Under the pieces are notes generated by a model. The model did no database searches and was not told the origin of the DNA. It saw only the letters and a list, made by a program, of their open reading frames with translations. This document shows positions 1-11,734 of a stretch of 64,000 bases of DNA, in pieces. Where the stretch lies: contig NZ_LMSH01000002.1 of assembly GCF_001428365.1 (NCBI RefSeq), positions 951,505 through 1,015,504 of the forward strand, written 5' to 3'. The stretch's first letter is position 1. Each line of letters begins with the position of its first letter. The translations under genes were made by a program, and so were the position numbers. The DNA comes from Arthrobacter sp. Soil763. Lineage in GTDB: Bacteria; Actinomycetota; Actinomycetes; Actinomycetales; Micrococcaceae.

Positions 1-560
1 TTCCGCCAGAACACGATGTAGACCCGGTCGCGGGACTGCGGGGCGCCGGGCCCGAAGGCTTGGGCGTGCATGGAGTTGAGGCTGATGATCTTGTGCTCGT
101 ACCCCAGGTCGGACATGGACTGCAGCCAGCCACGGAATGGCTTCCATGCGGTGACCTCGACGACGTTCTCGGTCATGATCGCCTCGTACTGGTGGACCTC
201 GGCGAACCGGGGCACGTCGTACATGGTCGCCCGGGACCGCTGCGCCGCCTCGTCCGGGAGGCCCTCCGTGAAGAGCGCGTCCTGGCCGTCCCACTGCTCG
301 CGCTTGACGCCCTTGGCCACTGTGAAGTTGGTGCACTCCGGCGAGGCCCACAGCAGGTTCGTTCGCGGGGTGTACTCGGGCCGGATGTGAGCGATGTCGG
401 CGCAGGCGTGGTCGGTCTTCGGGTGGTTGTAGCCGTGGGTTTCGATGGCGCGTTCCCAGTGGTTGAGCGCCAGCTTTACGTGGAGCCCGGGGACCTGCAT
501 GATGCCGGTGCTGGATCCTCCTGCGCCGCAGAAGAAGTCGGAGACGGTGAGTTCGGACAT
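1..560 (-). CDS. C5 cytosine-specific DNA methyltransferase, partial (phage)
   Basis: This gene runs off the left edge, so only the N-terminal 186 residues are visible. It starts MSELTVSDFFCGAGGSSTG, which is motif I (SAM binding) of the Dcm/M.HhaI family. SPECTNF takes the place of motif IV, where most members have a Pro-Cys pair and this one has Glu-Cys as many phage versions do. ENVVEV is motif VI and QSRDRVYIVFW is motif VIII. The enzyme would methylate cytosine at C5 in phage or host DNA, for protection from restriction or as part of a modification system. The target-recognition domain is outside the window. It is the most downstream visible gene of the leftward prophage early operon, 63 bp after a small hypothetical gene. 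The family call is firm; the biological role is inference. Confidence 0.88.
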   Translation of the reverse strand, partial: MSELTVSDFFCGAGGSSTGIMQVPGLHVKLALNHWERAIETHGYNHPKTDHACADIAHIRPEYTPRTNLLWASPECTNFTVAKGVKREQWDGQDALFTEGLPDEAAQRSRATMYDVPRFAEVHQYEAIMTENVVEVTAWKPFRGWLQSMSDLGYEHKIISLNSMHAQAFGPGAPQSRDRVYIVFWR

Positions 561-623
561 GAGTGGTTCCTTCCAAGGGGTGAGTAGGGTCCCCGCCCGG
601 TGTAGGCGGGGACCCTGATGTGG

Positions 624-896
624 TTAGCGGTGATACGGCCGCTTGATGGGTTCCGCCGGCGCGTCGATGACGACGACCTGGGCGGCCCCGTTCGCGCCGG
701 GCATCCCATGCCCTGGCACGATGTAGCCCTTGCCGGGCCCGGTTATGTGGGCGCGGTGGCGGAGGGCGACGTCTCGGAGGTCCTGGGAAGCTTCGTGGAT
801 GAGTGCTTCCCGGTCTTTTGCCGTGGTCGGCGGTGTGAGGACAGGCCAGATGGCGCGGAACGTATGGGTTGCCAGTGCAGGCTTCGTGCGGGCCAT
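624..896 (-). CDS. small phage protein of unknown function (90 aa)
   Basis: I do not recognise this 90-residue protein. It starts MARTKPALATHTFRAIWPVL, has an acidic/amphipathic middle (EALIHEASQDLRDVALRHRA), and ends in a basic tail (IKRPYHR). No Cys motif, membrane segment or catalytic signature is visible. Its ATG overlaps the TGA of the upstream zinc-ribbon peptide by one base (TGATG), which argues that it is translated by coupling in the phage early operon. It lies between a nucleic-acid-related block (NrdH, SSB, RecT, exonuclease) and the methyltransferase, so a DNA-metabolism accessory role is possible but unsupported. Confidence 0.7.
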   Translation of the reverse strand: MARTKPALATHTFRAIWPVLTPPTTAKDREALIHEASQDLRDVALRHRAHITGPGKGYIVPGHGMPGANGAAQVVVIDAPAEPIKRPYHR

Positions 897-1030
897 CAGT
901 CAGTGCACCCGGCGCATTCACCGGTGCGGTTCAGCGGCTTGTCGCACGAGGTGCACATGGCGATGTCCAACTGCCGGCGGGGGATGTTGATGACGGTCTT
1001 CGGCGGGATGAGGGCGATGGTCTCGGGCAT
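896..1030 (-). CDS. 44-residue zinc-ribbon-like phage peptide
   Basis: This short gene encodes 44 residues ending MCTSCDKPLNRTGECAGCTD, so two CxxC pairs (CTSC and CAGC) sit 11 residues apart, the spacing of a small zinc ribbon. The N-terminal half is hydrophobic and basic (ALIPPKTVINIPRRQ). Start and stop are fixed by one-base overlaps on both sides: its ATG shares a base with the TGA of the NrdH-like gene, and its TGA shares a base with the ATG of the next gene. Such micro-ORFs are common in actinophage early regions. The function is unknown; zinc binding is inferred from the cysteines alone. Confidence 0.68.
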   Translation of the reverse strand: MPETIALIPPKTVINIPRRQLDIAMCTSCDKPLNRTGECAGCTD

Positions 1031-1344
1031 CACGCGGCCGCCTCCTTGCCGAGGATGTGCTCGTCAATCTCTTCGACGTCGAAGCCGGACCAGTGGGCTA
1101 CTGACCCGTCAGGCTTGGCCACGAAGACAACCGGTGCTTGCAGATGCCCGAGGTCCTTGATGAACTCCAGCGCGCCAGGATCCTGGCTGACGTCGACGAC
1201 GGTGTAGTCCTTGCCTTCGATTAGGCCTTCCTTCTTGAACTTCCGCTTGGTCGCGTCGCACTGCACACATGCAGGTTTGCTGTAGAGGACGATGGCCACG
1301 CTGTCGCGGGCTTCGATGCGTGATGTGAGGTCGGTGATGGTCAC
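1030..1344 (-). CDS. NrdH-like glutaredoxin/redoxin (phage)
   Basis: This 104-residue protein has a thioredoxin-fold start with the redox motif CVQC at about residues 26-29 inside SKPACVQCDATKRKF, close to the CVQCTAT signature of NrdH redoxins. The cis-Pro region is APVVFV, and GSVAHWSGFD matches the C-terminal sheet with its conserved W-S/T-G-F-D stretch. NrdH proteins pass electrons from thioredoxin reductase to class Ib ribonucleotide reductase, and phages use them to keep dNTP synthesis running. No ribonucleotide reductase gene is visible here, so it may feed the host enzyme. It lies in the same leftward operon as ssb, recT and the exonuclease. Confidence 0.85.
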   Translation of the reverse strand: MTITDLTSRIEARDSVAIVLYSKPACVQCDATKRKFKKEGLIEGKDYTVVDVSQDPGALEFIKDLGHLQAPVVFVAKPDGSVAHWSGFDVEEIDEHILGKEAAA

Positions 1345-1355
1345 TGCGGGTCTCC

Positions 1356-1847
1356 TTAGAACGGGGGTTCGTTGTCGGCGCCGGCGCCCCAGGCTCCCGG
1401 CGAGTTATTGCCGGTCGAGGCCTGGTTGCCGCCCCAGGAGCCCTGTCCGGACTGGTTCCCGCCGGAACCGGCACCTTCCTGCCGCTGGGTGCGGTTCACC
1501 TTGGCGTTCGCGTAGCGCAGGCTGGGGCCGATCTCGTCGACCTCCAGCTCGATGACGGTGCGCCTCTCGCCTTCCTTCGTGTCGTAGGACCGGGACTTGA
1601 GCCGGCCGGACACGATGACGCGCATGCCCTTCGTCAGGGACTCGGCGACGTTCTCCGCCGCGTCCTTCCACACCGCGGCCCGGAGGAACAGGGTCTCCCC
1701 GTCCTTCCACTCGTTCGACTGCCGGTCGAACGTCCGCGGGGTCGACGCGAGCGTGAAGTTCGCAACCGCAGCTCCGGACGGGGTGAAGCGGAGCTCCGGG
1801 TCGTTGGTGAGGTTGCCGATCACAGTGATCGTGGTTTCGCCTGCCAT
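1356..1847 (-). CDS. ssb: single-stranded DNA-binding protein (phage SSB)
   Basis: The protein has 163 residues with an N-terminal OB fold typical of bacterial [20 protein letters not shown], then [29 protein letters not shown] and [15 protein letters not shown]. The C-terminal third is a Gly/Gln/Ser-rich linker, and the protein ends DNEPPF, the acidic tail with terminal Pro-Pro-Phe through which SSB binds partner proteins. It coats ssDNA in replication and recombination. It starts directly after the stop of the recT-like gene with no gap, which fits a recombination module of exonuclease, annealase and SSB. The host should have its own ssb elsewhere; this copy is phage-borne by position. Confidence 0.93.
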
Positions 1848-2810
1848 CTACTTGGCGCCTTCCTGGTCGAGTCCCCACTGGCCGTCGACGTCGGGGAGGA
1901 CCCCGTCAGCGTCCGCCGGGGGAGTCTCGGCCTCCTCGATGAAGCGGGACGCCTCAGCCTTGGTCAGCGCCTTGGAGGACTCGATGGTCCGGCCGGTGAA
2001 GGTGGACAGCTCGGCGAGACCGGCTTCGCGGTCGCTGGCGCCGAGCTTGCCGAGGATGACGTGGATCTTCGTGAGCTGCGCGCTGGTGGCCAGCGGCTCG
2101 GCCGGCGCCTCTGCCTCGTCCTGCGGTGCGTCGTGGACGACGTCGGGCAGGTCAGGGGCCGGGGCCTTAGCGCGCTGGATGGTGCGCTTGGGCCTCGCCT
2201 CGGCAGCCGGTGCCGCGGGGGCCTGCTCGCCGAGGTCGTCGAGCTCCACCTCTTCGACGGAGGTCGCGGCGATGCCGGTGAGGACGTCGGGGGCGATGAC
2301 GCGGCAGATCTCGGCCTGGCACTTCGCGGTGAGCATACCGATCGGGTCGGTCTGGTACTTCTTGTTCGAGGTGTACCCGGCCTTCTGGGCGCGGGCGATG
2401 GTCCACTCCACACGGGTGAAGGTGGTCTCGCCCTTGCGGCGGCCTTCGTACACGACGCGCTGCTCGGTTGCTTCTACGCGGCGGATGGTGTGGCCGGCCT
2501 GCATGACGAGCGCGGCCATGGTGCGGGCGTACATCGACGGGCGGCCGGAGACGACGAAGATGTTCGCCAGCGCGTTCATCGGGTCGAGTCCGAGGGACTT
2601 CCCGGCGAGGATGGCGGCGGCCGCGGCTTCGGGCTTGCCCCGGAACGATGCCGGGACGAACTCGGTGCTGCAGAGGGCAGTGCCGAGCTGGTGCGCGGCG
2701 GAGAGCTCCTGCGCCCACTCCATGAGGGACACGGTCATGGCCGTCGCCGGCAGGGCGCTGGTGTTGAATGCGGCGACCGGGGCCGCTTGGGGGATAGCTA
2801 CTTCGCTCAT
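1848..2810 (-). CDS. RecT-family single-strand annealing protein (phage)
   Basis: This 320-residue protein has the RecT core: an N-terminal helix-rich segment, then AAAAAILAGKSLGLDPMNALANIFVVSGRPSMYAR in residues about 60-95, the conserved large motif of RecT-like annealases, followed by TDPIGMLTAKCQAEICRVIAPD around residue 165. The C-terminal third is Ala/Pro/Glu-rich and probably disordered. RecT proteins bind ssDNA left by a 5'-3' exonuclease and anneal it to homologous sequence. The partner exonuclease lies immediately upstream, its TGA overlapping this ATG by 4 bases (ATGA), and ssb follows with zero spacing, so the three form one recombination module. Confidence 0.85.
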   Translation of the reverse strand: MSEVAIPQAAPVAAFNTSALPATAMTVSLMEWAQELSAAHQLGTALCSTEFVPASFRGKPEAAAAAILAGKSLGLDPMNALANIFVVSGRPSMYARTMAALVMQAGHTIRRVEATEQRVVYEGRRKGETTFTRVEWTIARAQKAGYTSNKKYQTDPIGMLTAKCQAEICRVIAPDVLTGIAATSVEEVELDDLGEQAPAAPAAEARPKRTIQRAKAPAPDLPDVVHDAPQDEAEAPAEPLATSAQLTKIHVILGKLGASDREAGLAELSTFTGRTIESSKALTKAEASRFIEEAETPPADADGVLPDVDGQWGLDQEGAK

Positions 2811-3658
2811 GCTGCTACTGCTTTCTGTTCGATGGTGATCGGGGCGCCGACGATGGCGTCCCGGAGTTTGGTGGTCTTGTGGGTGTAGGCCGCGGCAAGG
2901 AACATCGCGTAGTGGCCGCGCATCTCGTCGCGGTTCTTCGCCAGCGGGTAGAGGGTGGTGCCGAGCGGGGCGTCACCGTAGCGGGCGTTCTCGCCGTCCC
3001 GGTCCATGGGGGTCACGTGGGCGACGTAGGTCGCGACGATCTCCGGCATGGGCTGCTCGGTCCCGTCCTCGTCCATGTAGAACTCGGCCAGGGAGTACGC
3101 CGCGCACTGCAGGCCGGTCTCGCCGTAGACGAACTTGGAGGTCTTGAGGTCGATCATCACCGGCTGGCCGTCGTTCAGCAGGGGAGAGGTGCCGATCATG
3201 TCGAACTTCCCCGCGAACCAGTCCTTGCGGCTGGCGCACGGCCGCTCCATCAGCAGCGGCGTGATCTGGAACCGGTCGAGGAAGTCCGCGTAGCCCTCGA
3301 CGTATCCGGCCAGCTCTTCGGGGACGTCCTCGACGGTGCCGGTGGTGGCCAGGACTTCGGCGAAGTCGTGCACCGCGGTGCCACGGACGCCGGCGTCGTC
3401 TCGGACCCTGGCCGGCACTGCAGCCAGTTCACGGACCATGTCGACGTCGTCGCGGCTACGGAGGGATTCGATCTCGGCCGGGTTGGCCTCGACGTACTCG
3501 GCCACGACCTTCCCGGCCCAGTAGACGAGGGCGGGCTTCGGGATGCCGCCGCCGAGGATCGTGGTTACGCCGGTGACGGGGAGCCCATCGAGCTTGTACC
3601 GGTGGCCGTTGTGGGTGAAGGTGAGGCCTTTGGGTGCGGCCTTCGTTTTCGTGGTCAT
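2807..3658 (-). CDS. PD-(D/E)XK phage exonuclease (RecE/RecB-like)
   Basis: The protein has 283 residues from the ATG at 3658, chosen because GGAGA lies just upstream and because the preceding small gene overlaps it by ATGA. The nuclease core is visible: KFDMIGTSPLL supplies the first Asp, VMIDLKTSKFVYG contains the D-x-K motif (MIDLKTSK), and LQCAAYSLAEFY matches the downstream Q-x-x-x-Y motif of RecB-like nucleases. An N-terminal helical part carries HDFAEVLA. Paired with RecT, such an enzyme resects dsDNA to expose a strand for annealing. A longer ORF extends upstream to 3733, but that extension is Arg/His-rich and covers the Cys-rich peptide in another frame, so I exclude it. Confidence 0.84.
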   Translation of the reverse strand: MTTKTKAAPKGLTFTHNGHRYKLDGLPVTGVTTILGGGIPKPALVYWAGKVVAEYVEANPAEIESLRSRDDVDMVRELAAVPARVRDDAGVRGTAVHDFAEVLATTGTVEDVPEELAGYVEGYADFLDRFQITPLLMERPCASRKDWFAGKFDMIGTSPLLNDGQPVMIDLKTSKFVYGETGLQCAAYSLAEFYMDEDGTEQPMPEIVATYVAHVTPMDRDGENARYGDAPLGTTLYPLAKNRDEMRGHYAMFLAAAYTHKTTKLRDAIVGAPITIEQKAVAA

Positions 3659-3771
3659 GATTCGTCTCCAAGGGTCTTCGTGGTGGTGTCGGGGTCGCAG
3701 GTGCAGTCCCCGGTGCAGACGTGCTGTTCGCACGTGTCGCAGAGGCCGAAGCCGCGGCAGTAGCAGCTCAT
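3655..3771 (-). CDS. 38-residue cysteine-rich phage peptide
   Basis: This tiny gene encodes 38 residues with seven cysteines in the first 25 (MSCYCRGFGLCDTCEQHVCT, then DCTC), followed by a Thr-rich tail. The pattern CxC...CxxC...C...CxC suggests one or two bound zinc ions. Its TGA overlaps the exonuclease ATG (ATGA) and its ATG overlaps the stop of the next small gene, so it is held in a translationally coupled chain. Function is unknown. Confidence rests on the paired overlaps and Cys spacing, not on homology. Confidence 0.6.
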   Translation of the reverse strand: MSCYCRGFGLCDTCEQHVCTGDCTCDPDTTTKTLGDES

Positions 3772-3848
3772 GAGAGGTCCTCCCCGCAGACCGCGCAGGT
3801 CCTCGCGCCTTTGTCGTAGACGTCGGCGGGGTGCTCGCAGGCGCTCAT
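3768..3848 (-). CDS. 26-residue CxxC micro-peptide (phage)
   Basis: A 26-residue reading frame, MSACEHPADVYDKGARTCAV then CGEDLS, with C-x-H and CAVC motifs that could form a small zinc knuckle. It overlaps both neighbours by four bases (ATGA), the same arrangement as the rest of this operon, which is the main reason to believe it. Many actinophages carry such CEHP...CxxCG peptides, but I cannot name a family. Confidence 0.5.
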   Translation of the reverse strand: MSACEHPADVYDKGARTCAVCGEDLS

Positions 3849-3976
3849 GCCGCGTCCCGCCATTCGGTGTCTGCGGTTTCCGCTTCGGCCGCGGCGTCTG
3901 CCTGGTCCATGCGGATCGCCCATGCGCTCCACACGGCCGCTCCGATCGTCGCGAGCATCAGGAGGAAGGTGGTCAT
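3845..3976 (-). CDS. 43-residue single-pass membrane peptide (phage)
   Basis: The reading frame encodes 43 residues: a hydrophobic N-terminal helix MTTFLLMLATIGAAVWSAWA followed by an acidic, Ala-rich tail (DQADAAAEAETADTEWRDAA). This looks like a small membrane protein with a short N-out or N-in helix. It is linked by ATGA overlaps to the 121-residue gene upstream and the 26-residue gene downstream. The role is unknown; a superinfection-exclusion or accessory role is only a guess. Confidence 0.5.
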   Translation of the reverse strand: MTTFLLMLATIGAAVWSAWAIRMDQADAAAEAETADTEWRDAA

Positions 3977-4338
3977 GCCGCCACCGCCGCCGGTACGAAG
4001 ACCTCGTGGGTGCGGAACTCGGCGACGACGTCGCGGATGGCCATCAGGAGGTCCATTTCGAACCGTTCGACCAGCTCGGCCCGGTTGTCCTCCGTGCGGG
4101 CTTCGTTGAGGTTCAGCGCGTCGTGGGTGCCGTTCTCGACGTTGCGGAGGTCATCGAGGGCCTGCAGGGCGTTCGCGACGTAGGACGGCTGGGGGCGGAT
4201 GCCGAGCATCCCGCTGATCTCGTACGCGAGGACGTCTTCGTCCTGCCACTCGTTCGGGTACCGCTCGTAGTAGTTGATGATCGTCACCCGGGCGGCCTTC
4301 TCGGCCTGGTCCTTGGTGAACTGGAAAAGCTGGTCCAT
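3973..4338 (-). CDS. phage protein of unknown function (121 aa)
   Basis: This 121-residue, helix-rich acidic protein begins MDQLFQFTKDQAEKAARVTI, continues with YYERYPNEWQDEDVLAYEIS and SYVANALQALDDLRNVENG, and ends HEVFVPAAVAA. The regular helical pattern and lack of Cys or membrane segments suggest a small cytoplasmic adaptor. It ends in an ATGA overlap with the membrane peptide gene, so it belongs to the early operon. I do not recognise the family. About 78 bp separate it from the next upstream gene, the largest gap in the operon. Confidence 0.7.
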   Translation of the reverse strand: MDQLFQFTKDQAEKAARVTIINYYERYPNEWQDEDVLAYEISGMLGIRPQPSYVANALQALDDLRNVENGTHDALNLNEARTEDNRAELVERFEMDLLMAIRDVVAEFRTHEVFVPAAVAA

Positions 4339-4416
4339 CGTGTAGCCTCTCTGGTAGATGAGCTTCTTGCTTGTTCTTGGGTCCCGCGATGCTTTGGCCG
4401 GCTGCGGGGCCCTTTT

Positions 4417-4656
4417 CTATTGGGCGAAGATCCGGGTTTCGCGGAGCTGGCGGTTACGGGTCCGGCGCTGCGCTTTGTCCGGGGCTGGGCCCTGGGTGCC
4501 TTTGCGGCGGATCGCTTCGATGTCCTCGGGCCCGAACCGCATCTGCCGGCCGTCCCTCCACGCGGGCCATTTCCCGCCGTTCACCCGGTTGCGGACCGTC
4601 TGTTCGCAGATCTGGAACATCTGTGCGACCTCCGGGACGGTGAGATAGGTGCTCAT
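4417..4656 (-). CDS. excisionase-like helix-turn-helix protein (phage)
   Basis: The protein has 79 residues from the ATG at 4656. It starts MSTYLTVPEVAQMFQICEQT and continues VRNRVNGGKWPAWRDGRQMR, a MerR/excisionase-type winged helix of the kind that selects DNA through a single short recognition helix, then a wing and the acidic helix EDIEAIRR. The last 25 residues are basic (DKAQRRTRNRQLRETRIF). Such proteins act as excisionases or as small operon regulators. No integrase is visible nearby, so which role applies is open. Its start overlaps the stop of the next upstream gene by 4 bases (ATGA). Confidence 0.75.
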   Translation of the reverse strand: MSTYLTVPEVAQMFQICEQTVRNRVNGGKWPAWRDGRQMRFGPEDIEAIRRKGTQGPAPDKAQRRTRNRQLRETRIFAQ

Positions 4657-4910
4657 GCCGCCACCCATTCGCGGAGGATGCCGCCGTGGCGGGACCGGTG
4701 CCGTGAGGTGGAGACCCCGGCCTGGGTGATGAGTCCGCGGGAGCGGGCGATCTTGAACGCGGATCCAACCTTGTTCGGGTGCGGTGCGGGGCGGTGGTTC
4801 CAGCGGAGGTCGTCGGCAGTGACAGTGCCTCCGCGCTTGGCGAGGTCCGCGATCGTTGCGACGGCCTCCTCGGTCCACGTGGTGTCTTCCAGGGCCATTG
4901 ACTGCGTCAT
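4653..4910 (-). CDS. small winged-helix-like phage protein (85 aa)
   Basis: This 85-residue basic protein reads MTQSMALEDTTWTEEAVATI, then ADLAKRGGTVTADDLRWNHR, then PNKVGSAFKIARSRGLI. The layout (helix, TADDL helix, KVGSAFKIARSRGLI helix, strand) is what winged-helix DNA-binding domains look like, and similar proteins sit next to excisionase-like genes in actinophages. I infer DNA binding without a named family. The start at 4910 follows a plausible AAGGA at the expected distance, and the gene ends in an ATGA overlap with the excisionase-like gene. Confidence 0.65.
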   Translation of the reverse strand: MTQSMALEDTTWTEEAVATIADLAKRGGTVTADDLRWNHRPAPHPNKVGSAFKIARSRGLITQAGVSTSRHRSRHGGILREWVAA

Positions 4911-4926
4911 GTCGGCGTGTCCTTTC

Positions 4927-5271
4927 CTAAGCTGCTTGCAGGGTCTTACGGTGCGTGGTTTGCCGCTTGGCAGACGGTGCAACAGGCACGAAAAGAACCT
5001 CGACGGGGACGTTGAGGACCTCCGCGATGCGCGTCGCCGTCTCCGGCTCCAGGCAGCGGCGCCGGCCGCTGGTGAGGTGGTTGATGAAGCTCGGGTGCAC
5101 GCCCACACGGTCAGCCAGCCCCCGCTGGGTCATCTTGTGTGGGATGGGCGTGCCGGCCCGGTGCGCTTCGATGTCTTTCTGGGTGATGAGGAATGCGCGG
5201 AGCGCTTCCTTTGAGACCAGTCGCATGTACGTTCCTTTCGGCCATCGGGCCTTAGTGCGCCAGGGTGACAT
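4927..5271 (-). CDS. XRE-family regulator, first gene of the leftward early operon
   Basis: This is a helix-turn-helix protein of the Cro/CI class: MTQRGLADRVGVHPSFINHL followed by TSGRRRCLEPETATRIAEVLNVPVEVLF. It is the first gene after the leftward promoter (5324-5353) and divergent from the repressor candidate, the place a Cro-like protein takes in lambdoid switches. Two starts are possible. The ATG at 5271 has an ideal AAGGAG five bases upstream and gives 114 residues. The ATG at 5226 has AAGGAA and gives 99 residues starting MRLVSKEALRAF, which looks like the natural N-terminus of this family. I list the longer form because of its ribosome-binding site. A role as the antagonist of the repressor is inference from position. 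Confidence 0.78.
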   Translation of the reverse strand: MSPWRTKARWPKGTYMRLVSKEALRAFLITQKDIEAHRAGTPIPHKMTQRGLADRVGVHPSFINHLTSGRRRCLEPETATRIAEVLNVPVEVLFVPVAPSAKRQTTHRKTLQAA

Positions 5272-5290
5272 GAGCTCTCCTTTTTGGTCG

Positions 5291-5458
5291 GTAGGCGGGT
5301 TGCCTAGTGTCTGCTGCCCTTGAAGTATTGCCTACCGGTAGGCGGCATGTCAAGCACTGACAGTGCGGACTTTCCGCACGGGCGGTGCTCTGCTGCTAGA
5401 TGGGGGGCTTTTTTGGTAGGCGCAAACCTACAATTAGGGGTACCGCCTACCGGTAGGC
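5291..5458. promoter_or_regulatory. phage operator cluster (two perfect 14-bp palindromes plus half-site pairs)
   Basis: GCCTACCGGTAGGC occurs twice without mismatch, at 5330-5343 and 5445-5458, 115 bp apart centre to centre. Related half-sites in outward order occur at 5291-5307 (GTAGGC...GCCTAG) and 5416-5431 (GTAGG-N6-CCTAC). The second of these overlaps TACAAT (5429-5434), a possible -10 for the rightward repressor transcript, though no good -35 precedes it. The arrangement fits a lysogeny switch in which repressor and XRE protein compete. Assignment to a specific protein is inference. Confidence 0.75.
5324..5353 (-). promoter_or_regulatory. leftward early phage promoter
   Basis: On the minus strand, TTGACA (5353-5348) is followed by an 18-base spacer and AATACT (5329-5324). 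This is a near-consensus sigma-70 promoter in otherwise GC-rich DNA, aimed at the XRE gene and the whole leftward operon. A perfect 14-bp palindrome, GCCTACCGGTAGGC (5330-5343), lies entirely inside the spacer, so a bound repressor would cover both hexamers. Predicted transcription start is near 5317, about 46 bases before the ATG at 5271. Confidence 0.82.
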
Positions 5459-5512
5459 ATGCAGCGCACTCTGCGCGTTGCGCTCCACAGCACCCCTAGG
5501 AAAGCTCAGAGC

Positions 5513-6037
5513 ATGAACACGAATTCAAGCCCCAACTTCCAGCAGCTCGTCATGGAGCACAAGAAGGACGACTCGTTCGAGGCCATCTCCAAGCGCGCCG
5601 GCGGCGTCCCCAAAGCCCGGGCCCTGCAGTCCATCGTCAAGGACGGCTTCACCCGGATGCCCTCGCAGGAGACGATCGCTGGACTCTCCCGGGCCCTCCG
5701 CCTCAGCCCCCGGGAGCTCGTCCTGGCAGCCGCCCGAACCCTCGGTATCGACGTCGGAGACGATCAGGAATCCGACCTCGTCCTCTACGGCGCCGGCCGA
5801 CTCCCGCAGGAGTCCAAGGACGTCCTCCGCAACACTGCCGCCGAGCTGCTCAACTGGCAGGAAGGCCGCCGCGGCGGTGCATCCCAGGAAGCCGACAACG
5901 TCGTCCAGTTCCCCGCGCCCAAGAAGTCCCGGCCCGACTTCGAGCGAATGGCCGGCAACACCGAGGCCGAGTCCGAAGGTAAGCACGAAGCCGCCAGGGC
6001 ATCCCGCGCCGGGGAAGAATCTCAAGAGCTCGAGTAA
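5513..6037 (+). CDS. prophage repressor candidate (XRE-like helix-turn-helix)
   Basis: The protein has 174 residues from the ATG at 5513, which AGGAAA precedes; an ATG at 5459 lies inside the operator and has no ribosome-binding site. Residues about 20-80 form an HTH region: SFEAISKRAGGVPKARALQS, then GFTRMPSQETIAGLSRALRLSPRELVLAAARTLGI. The last 60 residues are hydrophilic and probably disordered. Transcribed divergently from the early operon across two identical palindromes and followed by a metallopeptidase gene, it fits an ImmR/ImmA-like arrangement in which the peptidase cleaves the repressor on induction. It lacks a LexA-type Ser/Lys autoprotease domain, which supports that reading. Confidence 0.75.
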   Translation: MNTNSSPNFQQLVMEHKKDDSFEAISKRAGGVPKARALQSIVKDGFTRMPSQETIAGLSRALRLSPRELVLAAARTLGIDVGDDQESDLVLYGAGRLPQESKDVLRNTAAELLNWQEGRRGGASQEADNVVQFPAPKKSRPDFERMAGNTEAESEGKHEAARASRAGEESQELE

Positions 6038-6077
6038 CAGAATCGTCGTTGTCGGAGCCTGCTACTAAGGTTGCGGC

Positions 6078-6476
6078 ATGGATTCTGGGGAGAGACTGGC
6101 GGCCGAGCTCGGCGTGCGCGTCGTCGCCACCCGCCTCCCCGGTCTCCTCGTCGCCGCAACTGACGGCAGGACCATCTACTACGACGAGCGGCTCACCCTC
6201 AGGGAGAAGCGCTGCGCCATCACCCATGAGCTCGTCCACATCGAGGCAGGGCACAGGGAATGCCAGCCGCCGGCGGTCGAGCGGAAGGTCCGCGTACTGG
6301 CAGCGCACCGGCTCGTGTCCTGGGAGGCGGTGTGGGAACACGCCCCCTGGGCCAACTCCATTGACGAGCTGGCCGAGGACGTCATGGTCACCAAGAGCGT
6401 CCTGTCTGACTGGATCGCTTCCCTCCCGGCCGAGACCCGGATGGCGCTGCAGCGGCGCTTTGAATGCTCGAATTAG
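6078..6476 (+). CDS. ImmA/IrrE-family metallopeptidase (phage)
   Basis: This 132-residue protein carries the zinc-peptidase motif HELVHIEAGH (H-E-x-x-H at about residue 50), preceded by RTIYYDERLTLREKRCAI as in ImmA/IrrE (COG2856) proteins. The C-terminal half has KVRVLAAHRLVSWEAVWEH and ELAEDVMVTKSVLSDWIASL, a helical region that usually follows the catalytic domain in this family. ImmA-type enzymes relieve repression by cutting the cognate repressor, here most likely the gene 40 bp upstream in the same direction. It is the last phage gene before the attachment site. No integrase lies between it and the site. Confidence 0.85.
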   Translation: MDSGERLAAELGVRVVATRLPGLLVAATDGRTIYYDERLTLREKRCAITHELVHIEAGHRECQPPAVERKVRVLAAHRLVSWEAVWEHAPWANSIDELAEDVMVTKSVLSDWIASLPAETRMALQRRFECSN

Positions 6477-6478
6477 GG

Positions 6479-6495
6479 TGTGCACTAAGTGCACA
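6479..6495. promoter_or_regulatory. 17-bp perfect dyad beside the attachment site
   Basis: TGTGCACT-A-AGTGCACA is a perfect palindrome starting 3 bases after the peptidase stop and about 90 bp from the att core. It could be an arm-type site for recombination proteins, or the stem of a weak terminator (no T-run follows). Nothing else is visible in 6496-6587. Confidence 0.35.
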
Positions 6496-6587
6496 GAAGC
6501 GTTAAATGAGGTTCAAATCGGTTAGTCTCGTTGGGTACGATCCGCAGAATCTAGGCATTTTCCGGGGCCAATAGTGGCGGCTGGGGC

Positions 6588-6610
6588 GGTTCAATTCCCC
6601 CCATCTCCAC
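6588..6610 (+). other. prophage attachment site in the 3' end of ssrA (tmRNA)
   Basis: GGTTCAATTC followed by CCCCCATCTCCAC has the T-loop (TTCAATT), the 3' half of the T-stem (CCCCC) and the acceptor 3' strand (CATCTCCAC) of bacterial tmRNA, without an encoded CCA. Upstream sequence contains no tRNA or tmRNA body. The 5' half of the T-stem reads GGCGG and leaves one C-C mismatch against CCCCC, as expected if the phage/host junction lies within the stem. A complete ssrA should lie beyond the left end of the prophage. Integration into ssrA is a well-known phage habit. Basis: sequence pattern plus recalled tmRNA consensus. Confidence 0.78.
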
Positions 6611-6614
6611 AACC

Positions 6615-6650
6615 AAAAGGCCGGAAGCTGATGCTTCCGGCCTTTTTGGT
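6615..6650 (+). terminator. rho-independent terminator after the ssrA 3' end
   Basis: A ten-bp perfect stem (GGCCGGAAGC / GCTTCCGGCC) with a TGAT loop lies at 6619-6642 and is followed by TTTTT. It begins nine bases after the tmRNA-like 3' end, where the host ssrA terminator would be. A-run and T-run symmetry makes it bidirectional in principle. Confidence 0.88.
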
Positions 6651-6702
6651 GTGCCCGCCGGCTCCTTGGGCGCCCGACGGCGGTGGTTACGGCGGGTGCC
6701 GG

Positions 6703-6837
6703 TCAGCGCTTCTTGATGTGCGCCACCGGGTCCGTATGCTCGTCCACGATGTGCTTGGCCTTCTTCTCGGCCCGTTTTTCCTTGATGGTTTTGACCGGCT
6801 TCTTGCTCAGGTGCCGGTGCGGCGACTTGTCAGGCAT
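6703..6837 (-). CDS. conserved small basic protein (44 aa)
   Basis: The reading frame encodes 44 residues: MPDKSPHRHLSKKPVKTIKE followed by KRAEKKAKHIVDEHTDPVAH and IKKR. It is very Lys/His-rich, with no membrane segment. AGGGAG lies ten bases upstream of the ATG, which supports translation, and short proteins of this type occur in many Arthrobacter-like genomes. Function unknown; the charge suggests nucleic-acid or ribosome association, which is inference. It is the first host gene after the prophage. Confidence 0.7.
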   Translation of the reverse strand: MPDKSPHRHLSKKPVKTIKEKRAEKKAKHIVDEHTDPVAHIKKR

Positions 6838-6887
6838 GGCGCGCTCCCTAAAAGGTGGGGGCCCGGGATGAGCCCGTGCTTTTAAGG

Positions 6888-7259
6888 CTACGCCTCGGGT
6901 ACGGCGACGTCCACGATGCCGACGAACCGGCTCCCGACGCCTTCGTACTCGCTGCGCACCAGGCCGGCGTCCGGGCCGGGCAGTTCGTACGGCACGTGGT
7001 GGGCGCAGCAGAGATGGGTAAACTCCGGCCACCACTTCTTCGGACGGGCGGTTTCGGAGAAGCCGCAGACCGTGCAGGTCAGTTGCACCCAGACCGGCCG
7101 TTTACCCGTGCGGTTGGCCCGGGACTGCTGCAGCCAGGCGGGCGGAGTGTCCAGTAGTTCGTCCAGTTCGGCGTCGGACAGGCGGGACGGAATGCCGTGA
7201 CGGTTGGCCATTTCCAGCGGGATATCAAGGATTTGGGCAGCTTCACGTCTGGTAACCAT
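6888..7259 (-). CDS. conserved actinobacterial protein with Cys/His cluster (123 aa)
   Basis: The N-terminal part (MVTRREAAQILDIPLEMANR, then LSDAELDELLDTPPAWLQQS) resembles a small helical DNA-binding-like domain of the DUF5997 type. The middle carries LTCTVCGFSE and THLCCAHHVP, giving CxxC and CCxHH groups that could bind zinc. The rest is an ordinary alpha/beta tail. It is divergent from the MFS gene, with 101 bp between starts. The DUF assignment is tentative and from memory; a regulatory role is not shown. Confidence 0.7.
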   Translation of the reverse strand: MVTRREAAQILDIPLEMANRHGIPSRLSDAELDELLDTPPAWLQQSRANRTGKRPVWVQLTCTVCGFSETARPKKWWPEFTHLCCAHHVPYELPGPDAGLVRSEYEGVGSRFVGIVDVAVPEA

Positions 7260-7360
7260 CCTTCAACTTTACGGGATCCGGGCAGGCCTGCGGCCCGGCG
7301 GCGGCCGGTGCTAGGCTCAAGCCACACCCGGCATCCCGGTGCCGGAGGAAGGCAGCAGCC

Positions 7361-8806
7361 ATGTCCGGCAGTCCCGCCGCAGCGTTGACGACCGTCGAAA
7401 AACGCGTGCTGTACGTGGCGATCGTCGCGTCCTTCATGGCGTTCCTCGACGGTTCCGTGGTCAACCTCGCCCTGCCCGCCATCAGCCGGGAACTCGGCGG
7501 CGGCCTGGTGGTCCAGCAATGGGTGGTTGACGCCTACCTGCTTACACTCGGCGCGCTGATCCTGGTCGCTGGTTCGCTCTCGGACCAGTTCGGCCGGGTG
7601 CGCGTCCTGCAGTGGGGCCTGGCCGGGTTCACCGTCACGTCCGTGCTCTGCGGCCTGGCGTGGAACGGTGAATCGCTGATTGTGGCCCGCGGCCTGCAGG
7701 GCATCGCCGGTGCCCTGTTGGTGCCCAGCTCGCTGGCCCTGATCGTCACGGTCTTCAGCGGACCGGCGCAGTCCGCGGCGATCGGCAAGTGGTCCGCCTG
7801 GACCTCCGGTGCGATCGTGGCCGCGCCGGTGCTGGGCGGCATCTCCGTGGACGTCTTTACCTGGCGGGTGATCTTCTTCCTCAACATCATCCCGGCCGCG
7901 GCCGTCTGGCCGGCCCTCCGACGGCTGCGCGCCCTGGACCGGGGCCGGGCCCCCGGCGCCCGGATCGACGCCGCCGGGACCGCCCTTGCGGTCATTGGCC
8001 TCGGCGGTGTCGTCTACGCCTTCATCGAACGCGGTACCCGGGGCTGGGGGTCCCCGCAGGTCTGGCTGCCGCTGGTGCTGGGGCTGGCCGCACTGGGCGC
8101 GTTCCTGCTGCACGAGCATCGTACGCCGGCGCCGATGATGCCGCTGCGGCTCTTTGCGATCCGCAACTTCGGCTGGGGCAACGCCGCCACCCTGGTGATC
8201 TATGGCGCGCTGAACCTTGGCTTCTTCGTCCTCGGGCTCTACCTGCAGCAGGTGGCCGGGCTGGGCGCCACCGCCGCCGGCCTTGCCCTGCTGCCCTCCA
8301 CCCTCCTGTTGCTGCTGCTCTCCGCCCGGGTTGGAACGTTGTCGGGCCGGTACGGGCCGCGCTGGTTCATGACGGCCGGGCCGCTGCTGTGTGCGGCGGG
8401 CTTTTTGATGATGCTGGGCATCGACCTGCCGCTGGACTACTTCGGCCAGGTGCTGCCCGGGCTGGTGGTGTTCGGCGTCGGCCTGGCCGTGACGGTCGCG
8501 CCGCTGACCGCCGCGATCCTCGGGGCCGTGGACCCGGAGGAATCGGGAATCGGGTCGGCGGTCAACAACGCCGTCGCCCGTATCGCGGGCCTGGTGACCA
8601 TCGCCTTCGCCGGGCTCATCACCGGCCCCGTTATTACGACGGCGGGCCTGCATGGCACGGCGGCGGTCACCGCGGGCCTCTTCATCGCGGGCGCCGCGGC
8701 GTCCGCCGTCGGCATCCGGAACCCTCCGCCGGCGCCAGACCCGGACGGGACAGGCCCGGGCGGGACAAGCCCAGGCGGAACGGACCCGGGCGGGCGCGCG
8801 GCCTAA
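7361..8806 (+). CDS. MFS drug exporter, DHA2 (EmrB/QacA) type
   Basis: The 481-residue protein has about 14 hydrophobic segments, the count of the DHA2 family. Motif A-like GSLSDQFGRVRVLQ follows TM2, and ASFMAFLDGSVVNLALPAIS in TM1 carries the L-D-x-T/S-V-V-N-V/L-A-L-P motif of EmrB/QacA proteins. LLVPSSLALIVTVF and the motif C-like GKWSAWTSGAIVAAPVLGG fit TM4-5. The C-terminus is a low-complexity Gly-Pro-Thr/Asp tail (repeats like DGTGPGGTSPGG). Such proteins export drugs or metabolites using the proton gradient. The substrate is unknown. Its stop overlaps the convergent mntR-like stop by three bases. Confidence 0.88.
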   Translation: MSGSPAAALTTVEKRVLYVAIVASFMAFLDGSVVNLALPAISRELGGGLVVQQWVVDAYLLTLGALILVAGSLSDQFGRVRVLQWGLAGFTVTSVLCGLAWNGESLIVARGLQGIAGALLVPSSLALIVTVFSGPAQSAAIGKWSAWTSGAIVAAPVLGGISVDVFTWRVIFFLNIIPAAAVWPALRRLRALDRGRAPGARIDAAGTALAVIGLGGVVYAFIERGTRGWGSPQVWLPLVLGLAALGAFLLHEHRTPAPMMPLRLFAIRNFGWGNAATLVIYGALNLGFFVLGLYLQQVAGLGATAAGLALLPSTLLLLLLSARVGTLSGRYGPRWFMTAGPLLCAAGFLMMLGIDLPLDYFGQVLPGLVVFGVGLAVTVAPLTAAILGAVDPEESGIGSAVNNAVARIAGLVTIAFAGLITGPVITTAGLHGTAAVTAGLFIAGAAASAVGIRNPPPAPDPDGTGPGGTSPGGTDPGGRAA

Positions 8807-9513
8807 GAGGCGACGCTGCAGCCGGCGTGAACGGCGTCGCTGTGCACCCAGAGCGCGGCGGCGACCTCGTCGGCAAGGTCGATCTCACGGGGCGCTCCGC
8901 CGGCGCCGATCCGCACCACCAGCGGCCCGCCGAACGGTTTGCGGCCCAGGACCTCGACGGCGGAGTCGAGGTCGATCTGCTCGGCGGCGAGGTAGCGCAG
9001 CAGCTCGGGGTTCTCGTCGCTGATCCGGGTGATCCGGCCGCTGTGGCCGTCGTCGAGTTCGCTCAGCCGGTGCGCCGGGGGCATCAGCACGGAGCCGTCC
9101 GCCGCCGGAATCGGGTCGCCGTGCGGATCCCGGACCGGGTTGCCGAGTTTGGCGGCCATCCGCTCGATGAAGGTGTCGGAGACCGCGTGTTCGAGCAATT
9201 CCGCCTCGTCGTGGACCTCGTCCCAGCGGTAGCCGAGTTCCTGGACCAGGAACGTCTCGATCAACCGGTGCCGCCGGACCATGGAAAGCGCCAGCCGCAG
9301 GCCGTCGGCGGTCAGGGTGACGGCGCTGTAGGGCTTGTGGTCCACCAGGCCCTGGTCCTTGAGCTTGCGGACCATCTCCGAGACCGAGGAGTTGGCCACG
9401 CCGAGCCGCTGGGCCAGCTGGGTGGAAGTGATGGGCTTGTCCTGCCACTCGGTGAACGAGTAAATGACCTTGACGTAGTCCTCGATCGAGGAGGATGGGG
9501 GACTGGTCTTCAC
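8803..9513 (-). CDS. mntR: DtxR/MntR-family manganese-dependent repressor
   Basis: The 236-residue protein has the DtxR layout: an N-terminal winged helix (SIEDYVKVIYSFTEWQDKPI, TSTQLAQRLGVANSSVSEMV, RKLKDQGLVDHKPYSAVTLT), a metal-binding/dimer domain (RRHRLIETFLVQELGYRWDE, then VHDEAELLEHAVSD), and a C-terminal SH3-like part (GRITRISDENPELLRYL). In the metal site a Glu-His-Ala-Val pattern is present. It sits 10 bp downstream of the Nramp gene on the same strand, so it probably controls manganese import in response to Mn(II). An iron-sensing IdeR role is less likely because of the mntH partner. Confidence 0.87.
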   Translation of the reverse strand: MKTSPPSSSIEDYVKVIYSFTEWQDKPITSTQLAQRLGVANSSVSEMVRKLKDQGLVDHKPYSAVTLTADGLRLALSMVRRHRLIETFLVQELGYRWDEVHDEAELLEHAVSDTFIERMAAKLGNPVRDPHGDPIPAADGSVLMPPAHRLSELDDGHSGRITRISDENPELLRYLAAEQIDLDSAVEVLGRKPFGGPLVVRIGAGGAPREIDLADEVAAALWVHSDAVHAGCSVAS

Positions 9514-9523
9514 AGTCCCAAGC

Positions 9524-10819
9524 CTACCGTCCGGCGGCGCCGGTGAACGTCAGCCACAGCAGCACCAGGTTCAGGGCCACCACCAGGACCACGCTGACGA
9601 CGGCGGCGACCCGCAGCGCCATCCCGTCGGCGAAACCGCCCATCAGGGACTTGCTGCTGGTCAGCACCACGAGCGGCACCAGGACGAACGGGATACCGAA
9701 GCTGAGCACGACTTGGCTGAGCACCAGTCCCCAGGTGGGGTCGAAGCCGACGCCCAACAGGACGACGGCGGGGATCAGGGTGAGCACCCGCCGCAACATC
9801 AGCGGGATGCGGATCTTCAGCAGACCCTGCATGATGGTGCCGCCGGCGTAACAGCCCACCGAGGTGGAGGCCAGGCCGGAGGCGAGCAGTCCGACGGCGA
9901 ACACCGCGCCCAGCACCGGGCCGAGGTTGGCCGTGATGGCGCCGTGGGCGCCCTCGATGGTGTCCGTGCCCTCCTCTCCGCCGAGGGTGGACGCGGCCAG
10001 CAGCAGCATCCCGATGTTGACGATCCCGGCGACAGCCAGGGCCGCGACCACGTCCCAGCGGGTGGCCCTGACCAGCCGGGAAACGGCGTGGGCGGGGACG
10101 TGCACGTGGGGGTTGGGCCGGTGCCGGTCGCGGGAGAGCGCGGAGTGGACATAGATGGCGTGCGGCATCACCGTCGCGCCGAGCATGCTGGCAGCCAGGA
10201 GCACCGTGTCCGGGCCCTGGAAACCGGGCACCAGCCCGGCCGCGACGCCGCGCGGGTCCGGCGGACTGATGAACAGCCCGGCCAGGAAGCCCACCGTGAT
10301 GATGGCCAGCAGGAAGATGATGACGAACTCGAACGGGCGCTGCCGGTTGCGGCTCTGCACGGCGAGCAGGGCCATGGAAATGCCGCCGACAATCACCGCC
10401 CCGAGGGGGAGCGGCAGGCCGAAGAGGAGGTAGAGCGCCACGGCCCCGCCCACCACCTCGGCCAGGTCGGTCGCGGCGGCGACGATTTCGGCCTGGACCC
10501 AGAAGGCGCGGCGCCACAGCGGCCGCAGCCGCTCGCCGAGGATCTCCGGCAGGCTCTTGCCCGTGACGATGCCGAGCTTCGCGGACTGGTACTGGACCAG
10601 GACCGCCATGACGTTCGCCGCGACGAGCACCCAGACCAGCAGGTAGCCGTACTGCGCGCCGGCGGTGAGGTTGGCGGCCACGTTGCCGGGGTCCACGTAG
10701 GCGATGGCGGCCACGAAGGCAGGGCCGAGCAGCCCCAGCAGCGCACGACGGCGGCCGCGCACCCCGCGGGCGGGCGGCAGCGGCGCGGGCTGCTGTTCGG
10801 GTCCGGCGACATCCAGCAC
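9524..10819 (-). CDS. mntH: Nramp-type manganese transporter MntH
   Basis: The 431-residue membrane protein has about 11 transmembrane segments. TM1 carries YVDPGNVAANLTAGAQYGY with the metal-binding DPGN, and TM6 carries GATVMPHAIYVHSAL with the MPH motif, both diagnostic for Nramp. It imports Mn(II) (and possibly Fe(II)) with protons. Translation starts at GTG 10819, nine bases after GGGAGA. The mntR-like gene follows 10 bp downstream, so both are probably one transcript controlled by the dyad at 10844-10866. Confidence 0.92.
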   Translation of the reverse strand: MLDVAGPEQQPAPLPPARGVRGRRRALLGLLGPAFVAAIAYVDPGNVAANLTAGAQYGYLLVWVLVAANVMAVLVQYQSAKLGIVTGKSLPEILGERLRPLWRRAFWVQAEIVAAATDLAEVVGGAVALYLLFGLPLPLGAVIVGGISMALLAVQSRNRQRPFEFVIIFLLAIITVGFLAGLFISPPDPRGVAAGLVPGFQGPDTVLLAASMLGATVMPHAIYVHSALSRDRHRPNPHVHVPAHAVSRLVRATRWDVVAALAVAGIVNIGMLLLAASTLGGEEGTDTIEGAHGAITANLGPVLGAVFAVGLLASGLASTSVGCYAGGTIMQGLLKIRIPLMLRRVLTLIPAVVLLGVGFDPTWGLVLSQVVLSFGIPFVLVPLVVLTSSKSLMGGFADGMALRVAAVVSVVLVVALNLVLLWLTFTGAAGR

Positions 10820-10843
10820 TGTGGTCTCCCTGAATTTCTTGAT

Positions 10844-10866
10844 TGCCTACATATAAAAGTTAGGCA
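10844..10866. promoter_or_regulatory. candidate MntR operator upstream of mntH
   Basis: TGCCTAC (10844-10850) and GTTAGGCA (10859-10866) form an inverted repeat with an AT-rich spacer, in a short AT-rich stretch that also holds a TATATG-like -10 on the minus strand. Half-sites of the type TGCCTAA are typical for DtxR-family repressors. The site lies 25-47 bp upstream of the mntH GTG. The protein-site pairing is inference from position. Confidence 0.65.
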
Positions 10867-10905
10867 CACCGAAATTCTAGGGGTGCGGCGGGATCCGTGC
10901 AATCC

Positions 10906-11664
10906 TCAGGCCCTGGTGGCCCGCCAGCTCTGTGTCAGGTAGGGCAGGGCCAGGAGTTCGCCGTCACTGTGGCCAAGGTGCTCGTGCAGGTACCAATCGA
11001 GGTTCCCGAGCACCTTGGCGCGGGTGGCCTCGCCGGCCCGCAGGTAGTAGCTGCGGGACTTGGCCAGTTCCACGAGGTCCCCGGTGCTGACCGGGTCCTC
11101 CCAGCGGGTGAGGTGGCTCTCCAATCCGGTGAACTCCGGGCCGACCGTCGGTCTGAAGTCCGGTTTGTGGACATCGCCGGCGTGCATGATCCGGGACAGC
11201 CGGTGCACCCACGGGACGGAGGTGTCGAGCTGGTTCCAGACCAGGCCCAGGACCCCGCGCGGCCGCAGGATGCGGGCAGCCTCGGCGCTGGCGGCCAGCG
11301 GGTCGCACCAGTGCCACGCCTGCGCGACCGTGACCAGGTCGAAGGCTTCCGCCGGCAGGCCGGTGTGCTCGGCAGTGCCCTCGACGGCGGTGACGCCCGG
11401 CAGGGAACGGCGCAGTTGCGCCAGCATGTCCAGCGACGGGTCGACGGCCACGGTTGCCAGGCCGCGTTCGACCAGCAGCGCCGTGTATTTGCCGGTTCCG
11501 GCGCCCAGGTCCGCGGCATCCCGCGCCCCGGCCGGGACCAGCCAGTCGGCCGAATCCGCCGGGTAGCCCGGACGGACGCGGTCGTAGTGCTCCCCGCCGT
11601 CCTGGAAGCTCCGGCCCAGCTCCTGCCGGCGTGAATGGTGAAGCTTGGGGCCGCCGCGTGCCAC
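10906..11664 (-). CDS. class I SAM-dependent methyltransferase
   Basis: The 252-residue protein shows motif I of the Rossmann-fold methyltransferases, DAADLGAGTGKYTALLVERG, followed by TVAVDPSLDMLAQLRRSLPG (acidic residue after beta-2) and FDLVTVAQAWHWCD (motif IV region), and ARILRPRGVLGLVWNQLD (motif VI). The N-terminal region (HSRRQELGRSFQDGGEHYDR) is typical of the UbiE/Methyltransf_11-type family. The substrate is unknown. It lies 70 bp downstream of the class V aminotransferase on the same strand, so it may be in the SAM-IV-controlled transcript. Confidence 0.82.
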   Translation of the reverse strand: MARGGPKLHHSRRQELGRSFQDGGEHYDRVRPGYPADSADWLVPAGARDAADLGAGTGKYTALLVERGLATVAVDPSLDMLAQLRRSLPGVTAVEGTAEHTGLPAEAFDLVTVAQAWHWCDPLAASAEAARILRPRGVLGLVWNQLDTSVPWVHRLSRIMHAGDVHKPDFRPTVGPEFTGLESHLTRWEDPVSTGDLVELAKSRSYYLRAGEATRAKVLGNLDWYLHEHLGHSDGELLALPYLTQSWRATRA

Positions 11665-11734
11665 GTGCGATCTCCTTCGGCAGCTCTGGTGGGTACCTGA
11701 AGAATTTACCGCACGGCCGGCGGCCGCGCCGCGC

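Follow-up and report, generated by a model that had tools for sequence, protein, structure and literature searches.

Four operators sharing one 7-bp half-site very probably control the switch of an Arthrobacter prophage, with Cro as their likeliest reader

In the switches of phages lambda, 434 and P22, the repressor and Cro share their operators, and those of 434 are 14-bp palindromes whose outer four bases vary with specificity. In phage BPs, a perfect palindrome is described between the -35 and -10 elements of the early lytic promoter, with a second operator downstream of P_rep; the BPs operator is a 12-bp sequence, CGACATATGTCG, read by the tetrameric repressor gp33 through paired half-sites, and operators also lie elsewhere in the genome, in a system with integration-dependent control (PMC4557955). 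An operator within a promoter spacer is therefore not new, since the O_R of BPs is one (PMC4557955). For phage CarolAnn, gp45 has been identified by experiment as the immunity repressor, which gives superinfection immunity, and gp46 was called likely Cro-like; the main text of that paper uses neither 'operator' nor 'binding site', and its figure marks putative promoters (PMC6426606). A palindrome between the rep and cro genes has been reported for Weirdo19ES and three phages compared with it (PMC7194413). In the mobile element ICEBs1, the gene for an XRE-type repressor, ImmR, is followed by that for a zinc peptidase, ImmA (PMC10233336).

Here we describe a switch from Arthrobacter sp. Soil763, found in a window (the whole stretch of DNA analysed) of 64,000 nucleotides. 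It lies close to the right-hand end of a prophage of 38.7 kb and is enclosed by a Cro-like gene that reads leftward and a repressor gene that reads rightward. Its features, with those that surround it, are as follows.

4417-4656, minus strand: excisionase-like small HTH_17 protein, downstream in the presumed lytic operon (Pfam HTH_17 2.2e-10; PHROG excisionase 6.6e-7)
4927-5271, minus strand: Cro-like XRE protein, 114 aa (Pfam HTH_3 E 1.2e-10; AlphaFold2 helices 49-56 and 60-68)
5290-5296, minus strand: O1, half-site GCCTACC in the presumed cro leader (half-site search; position kept in relatives)
5324-5329, minus strand: P_cro -10, AATACT (consensus scan)
5330-5343, either strand: O2, palindrome GCCTACCGGTAGGC in the P_cro spacer (motif search and promoter scan)
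5348-5353, minus strand: P_cro -35, TTGACA (consensus scan)
5363-5379, either strand: perfect 7-3-7 inverted repeat, GTGCGGA-CTT-TCCGCAC, lying some 10 bp upstream of the P_cro -35 (relatives have TGCGGAA near this place)
5415-5421, minus strand: O3, half-site GCCTACC (GGTAGGC on the plus strand), in the expected P_rep spacer (half-site search; relatives)
5429-5434, plus strand: presumed P_rep -10, TACAAT, without a recognisable -35 (by eye)
5445-5458, either strand: O4, palindrome GCCTACCGGTAGGC at the presumed P_rep transcript start (motif search)
5513-6037, plus strand: immunity-repressor-like protein, 174 aa (PHROG repressor 5.2e-9; start region common to relatives)
6078-6476, plus strand: ImmA-like metallopeptidase, HELVH (Pfam Peptidase_M78 E 8.6e-6; PHROG metallo-protease 2e-13)
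6585-6622, plus strand: attR-like partial tmRNA 3' end, the right end of the prophage (38 columns, 87% to the left-end tmRNA)

Judged by its phage genes and by its ends, a tmRNA and the copy of the tmRNA end at 6585-6622, the element is a tmRNA-integrated prophage, complete-looking in the parts checked. Between the tmRNA end and the 38-bp partial copy it spans 38,660 bp; the tmRNA at its left end is followed by an integrase (PHROG 8e-60), excisionase-like HTH_17, exonuclease, RecT and SSB genes lie to the left of the Cro-like gene (Pfam/PHROG), and among ten ORFs checked further left, others matched portal, large terminase, head and tail families. An ARAGORN tmRNA call at 261-737 was taken as false, as it carries a '*', and the left-end call was used instead; an Rfam scan of window positions 1-12000 gave no matches. 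The switch proteins of one IMG/VR record of 38,792 bp are identical to those of the window.

The first-pass annotation of this DNA had called the left gene XRE-type and the right gene repressor-like, followed by an HExxH peptidase, with no LexA-type autoprotease present, and these assignments hold. The leftward protein is an HTH_3 match and the HELVH protein a Peptidase_M78 match; the rightward protein is recognised as a repressor by PHROG and reaches just E 0.069 for Pfam HTH_3, under the cut-off, so that by the libraries used it is not recognisably ImmR. No S24/LexA-type peptidase domain, the C-terminal domain of autocleaving LexA/cI-type repressors, is matched in it by Pfam; an NCBIfam search matches it to no repressor family, and a PDB sequence search with it returns no chain at E<=1. 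Its AlphaFold2 model has an N-terminal XRE-like five-helix domain that resembles P22 c2 and 434 Cro (TM to target 0.77 and 0.75, with weak Foldseek E-values of 0.10 and 0.40), and past residue 122 the C-terminus is modelled without structure, at pLDDT mostly <60. The Cro model resembles 434 Cro weakly by score (Foldseek E 0.034, TM 0.62 to target), and a PDB sequence search with the Cro protein gives weak generic matches only.

A window search confirmed the two mismatch-free palindromes that had drawn attention to this locus: GCCTACCGGTAGGC occurs exactly twice, at 5330-5343 and 5445-5458. Allowing up to two mismatches gives three matches in the window against 0.25 expected, and three or more were reached in none of 100 shuffles. 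These two are also the only exact copies in the host genome (3.54 Mb, 9 contigs), in which no version with one mismatch occurs. The lytic promoter P_cro, TTGACA-N18-AATACT on the minus strand at 5353-5324, matches 10 of 12 consensus bases and is the sole promoter-like site from a consensus scan of 4900-6700, where 0.3 were expected. It had been called ideal, with a palindrome exactly filling its spacer; the promoter is there and the palindrome is inside it, but the -10 matches only 4 of 6 bases, and the palindrome covers 14 of the 18 spacer bases, abutting the -10. The presumed P_rep was missed by the same scan of 4900-6700, and the second palindrome starts 10 bp past its TACAAT. Half-site pairs were said to flank both palindromes: one GGTAGGC does stand at 5290-5296 and one at 5415-5421, but a constant partner half found no support, since across relatives it has no fixed place at O3 and at O1 is only partial, an abutting inverted half with a mean of 3.4 of 7 matches. 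A second TTGACA often precedes O1 in relatives (by eye, as TTGACAGATAGGCGCCTACC, for example in L018, L068, L070, L071, L108 and L109), which suggests lytic promoters in tandem whose spacers each hold an operator.

What the palindromes belong to appears once relatives are compared. A scan of viral contigs for close relatives of the repressor found the near-identical prophage alone, and scans with the Cro alignment opened the family: 89 loci with a Cro or repressor match reduce to 53 distinct Cro proteins. The scan patterns lay outside the Cro recognition helix for viral contigs and inside it for genome contigs, which biases eight loci towards His-65. A 7-bp half-site recurs at four places before the cro start codon, about 22 (O1), 67 (O2), 145 (O3) and 180 bp (O4) away, with O1-O2 spaced 45-47 bp in 47 of 51 switches, O2-O3 77-79 bp in 49 of 51 and O3-O4 35-37 bp in 47 of 51. 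Tested against 1000 shuffles, with the spacing windows derived from these same arrays, 36 of the 37 non-redundant ones stood out at p<0.01, the one failure being L068; in a looser test 45 of 53 beat all 60 shuffles, the other eight being L068, L073, L079, L080, L090, L094, L103 and L110. L103, which has no array, was dropped before the covariation analysis, and L110, whose start codon was misplaced by the script, was counted by its own palindrome alone.

The palindrome as the conserved unit was dropped, since an inward second half is clearly enriched at O2 only (a mean of 4.2 of 7 matches versus 0.7-2.2 at the other offsets shown), with means of 2.7 at O4, 2.4 at O1 and 2.0 at O3. A stoperator-like spread was likewise rejected, GCCTACC occurring outside the switch seven times on both strands of the 38,660 bp against 3.7 expected. 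On these comparisons the palindromes are very probably two of four operators that share one 7-bp half-site at fixed spacing, the control sites of the prophage switch; array, spacing and covariation strongly support the earlier suggestion of a lysogeny switch with a real operator.

The half-site itself differs between switches, and the classes GCCTACC, GTCTACC, GATAACC, GTACACC, ATTCACC, GTGTACC and GTCCACC vary in their first four bases, while ACC ends 30 of 38 consensus half-sites. We compared these bases with the linked proteins in 52 arrays, which came down to 38 at an 85% limit on Cro identity. Among Cro columns, residue 65 is the strongest in this non-redundant set, with a partial r of 0.82 controlled for overall Cro distance, followed by column 14, outside the helix (0.49), and residue 60 (0.46); both residues 60 and 65 fall inside the predicted recognition helix, 60-68 (AlphaFold2). 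The four tips without His-65 (Q, R, A and A) are four of the five, among 38, in which bases 3-5 are not CTA (p 7e-5, relatedness ignored), and they stand at separate places on a Cro tree from which the helix was left out. Base 2 follows residue 60, Pro with C in 19 of 19 and Lys with T in 13 of 14, Gly or Ala likewise occurring with C; because this association is essentially one deep split of the helix-free tree, its Fisher p is not independent evidence. There are exceptions: L093 alters bases 3-5 though His-65 is kept, and L090 has Lys-60 with C.

The repressors follow the half-site less closely. In the family of 30 members the best repressor column reaches 0.53, whereas Cro 65 in the same set reaches 0.82; in a family of six, too small for columns to be ranked, the values are up to 0.70 for repressor columns and 0.89 for Cro 65. 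These two families, called unrelated because the profile of the first has no match to the second, share GTCTACC. Conversely, L082 and L099 have an identical repressor helix, SPQTLNSWKKRG, and different Cro helices, and their half-sites are GTCTACC and GTACACC. (For L083 and L101 the script picked a wrong repressor ORF; L083 was placed in the second family in the motif count below and not in the covariation.) Because the half-site tracks the helix of Cro better than that of the repressor, we consider Cro the likeliest reader of the palindromes, ahead of the 174-residue repressor. In the 434 system, residues 28 and 33 lie where, by an alignment made by eye, we take Cro residues 60 and 65 to fall, and the predicted fold and the covariation would fit recognition of the 434 type, through putative contacts with the outer bases of a 14-bp palindrome.

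We read the observed array, spacing, conservation and covariation as a cro/repressor switch in which a Cro dimer reads GCCTACC at four operators, the repressor holds P_cro off and the peptidase removes the repressor, and we consider this scheme as a whole probable. A dimer of the 114-residue Cro-like protein would read the half-site at O1-O4, with O2 inside the P_cro spacer, O1 just downstream of P_cro, O3 in the P_rep spacer and O4 at the P_rep transcript start. Bound Cro would shut both promoters, and the perfect palindromes O2 and O4, one per promoter, would be the strongest sites. In the recognition helix, residues 60 and 65 would determine which bases stand in the outer part of the half-site, while ACC in the inner part stays mostly constant. 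In the lysogen the 174-residue repressor would keep P_cro off, and at induction the ImmA-like peptidase would probably destroy it.

The reading that competes best with this scheme is that repressor and Cro share O1-O4 and compete for them, as in lambda, 434 and P22, with the repressor using the constant ACC or tolerant contacts. Four sites laid over two promoters suit such competition, and the repressor model is XRE-like, with its resemblance (at weak Foldseek scores) to P22 c2 and 434 Cro. The repressor nevertheless tracks the half-site poorly, two repressor families sit on GTCTACC, and the shared helix SPQTLNSWKKRG of L082 and L099 goes with two different half-sites, so that we regard shared operators as possible, with the balance of evidence against them.

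Somewhat more tentatively, we consider that the operators could be split, Cro reading the four-site array and the repressor reading a separate TGCGGA-type repeat upstream of the P_cro -35. The perfect inverted repeat at 5363-5379 is a candidate site for the repressor or for a host factor. Of 37 non-redundant switches, 16 carry TGCGGAA at a distance of 34 or 35 bp from O2 and another carries it at 51 bp; in 100 shuffles no shared 7-mer was found in more than five switches. In the second repressor family, TCCGCA/TGCGGA motifs occur at -43, -34 and +23 from O2, with all three in four of seven non-redundant members, two in L099 and one each in L091 and L093. L082 and L099, whose Cro half-sites differ, both have the -43 and +23 motifs and are one base apart at the -34 motif. 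Persistence of the first two despite the altered half-site would point to a repressor site, but the -34 copy is found beside repressors of either family, as might equally be expected of a host-factor site. An inverted repeat upstream of P_cro is present, in strong or weaker form, in the second family, and among switches of the first family it is outstanding mainly in the window and L031 and less so in L043. In L031 roughly this position, 30 bp upstream of O2, is taken by a different perfect 7-3-7 repeat, CCAATAA-cgc-TTATTGG, in a phage whose repressor helix differs as well.

In the first-pass annotation, the 174-residue repressor was the proposed main reader of the palindromes, with the metallopeptidase removing it. 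The gene order does match the ImmR/ImmA modules described for ICEBs1 (PMC10233336), and an HExxH ORF starts within 61 nt of the repressor end in 18 of 53 switches. However, the covariation favours Cro, the GCCTACC operator serves repressors with quite different helices, and in 23 of 53 switches our scan found no HExxH ORF nearby; together these points make this version unlikely. Counted within 1.8 kb behind the repressor, an HExxH ORF was present in 28 of 53 switches and absent in those 23, with 2 more segments incomplete, in a scan in which several segments were shorter than 1.8 kb and L083 and L101 started from a guessed place. Because the array occurs without a nearby HExxH ORF, array and peptidase are separable. 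Removal of the repressor by the peptidase is itself plausible by analogy with ICEBs1 ImmR/ImmA, from which the window switch differs in its divergent Cro partner and its operator array. Setting this route against RecA-type self-cleavage, as had been done, was a false choice, since the ICEBs1 ImmA peptidase itself can act downstream of RecA (PMC10233336). In two relatives (L009 and L110), two repressor-like genes in tandem precede the HExxH ORF, and the same Cro with tandem genes is found in Arthrobacter luteolus (L107) and A. gandavensis (L110).

Exact copies of GCCTACCGGTAGGC were also sought elsewhere. Among viral contigs it occurs in 32 stretches, six of them at a cro/repressor switch and 26 without such a match adjoining. 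It is present in 12 of 395 family genomes, a reversed-sequence control being present in 10 of 395 (counted by eye), and six of the 12, the window's own included, have it at a cro/rep switch. Copies outside phage switches, named beforehand as a sign against the reading, thus occur in the other six, and with the control at that level they do not refute it. Two copies were found in three of the 395 genomes, in all three at the switch and 114-115 bp apart. The L043 and L031 prophages keep both palindromes at this distance, in the same promoter positions, with repressors 74% and 45% identical overall to that of the window, and in L031, an independent prophage, promoter and gene order are kept too. 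At the genome loci, hosts that carry a name belong to Arthrobacter, Paenarthrobacter, Nocardioides and Geodermatophilus; among named phages, those with a Cro relative have Gordonia, Mycobacterium or Glutamicibacter as hosts. That the palindromes are no phage operator but chance repeats, an RNA hairpin or a host regulator site is very improbable: a perfect 14-bp palindrome can fold as RNA, and copies with no cro/repressor match adjoining occur in both sets, but the only copies in this genome sit at the switch, and neither the fixed four-site spacing nor the covariation with a linked protein would be expected under any of the three.

A rule on the array and on residues 60 and 65 was fixed beforehand, and 14 named, previously unused records were then fetched, leaving out Toast and DumpsterDude, whose Cro is identical to training members. 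In raw scoring, without a shuffle control, the array was present and the two residues gave the observed bases in 11 of 14. Nine of these successes, with Cro 69-88% identical to the nearest training member, are properly independent; the other two, Malibo and prophi91-4, have Cro proteins that match training members at 96-100% identity. Lutum, Morkie and BeeGee yielded only three sites out of four. The failures, prophiFSAT01-1, GrandSlam and Brylie, have no such array, and their Cro proteins are the most distant, at 41-43% identity. In prophiFSAT01-1 (positions 870-1095), five copies of CTACTAG lie between the genes for repressor and Cro, and these may be the array in a diverged form. The Cro-like ORF of prophi91-4 (1201-1467) is unannotated as a gene in the public record; most named records fetched label the pair 'Cro' or 'HTH' and 'immunity repressor'.

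The switch thus differs from the closest described systems in several ways. From 434 it differs in operator sequence, in its array of four and in host range. Unlike BPs, the prophage carries half-site copies outside the switch at a number near chance (7 against about 3.7 expected), where Cluster A stoperators would also be spread, and unlike BPs, in which attP lies in the repressor gene, its attachment core lies in the tmRNA and at 6585-6622, beyond the peptidase gene. CarolAnn, which we presume to be L093, shares a homologous Cro-like protein and has its own version of the array, whereas its repressor belongs to the other repressor family and is followed by no HExxH ORF in our scan. Cro/repressor switches are already known in such phages. 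The array and the specificity pattern seem new: no description of the operator array with its Cro specificity pattern was found in the open-access literature, most subscription papers lying outside the scope of the search, and GCCTACCGGTAGGC was absent from the open-access literature searched. Short motifs match many papers, so that the half-sites cannot be called absent from print.

Records of temperate Gordonia and Mycobacterium phages, as fetched here, label the early regulatory region just 'immunity repressor' and 'HTH protein' or 'Cro', and the array together with two Cro residues could mark operators, lytic promoter and Cro gene from sequence alone. The natural Cro/operator pairs are ready-made for testing how Cro specificity evolves, and the array offers a direct test of a premise of the lambda model, that Cro and repressor must share operators. 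If the operators are indeed split, Cro specificity could drift or be swapped with immunity unchanged, and phages with the same operator could cross-talk through Cro while staying hetero-immune.
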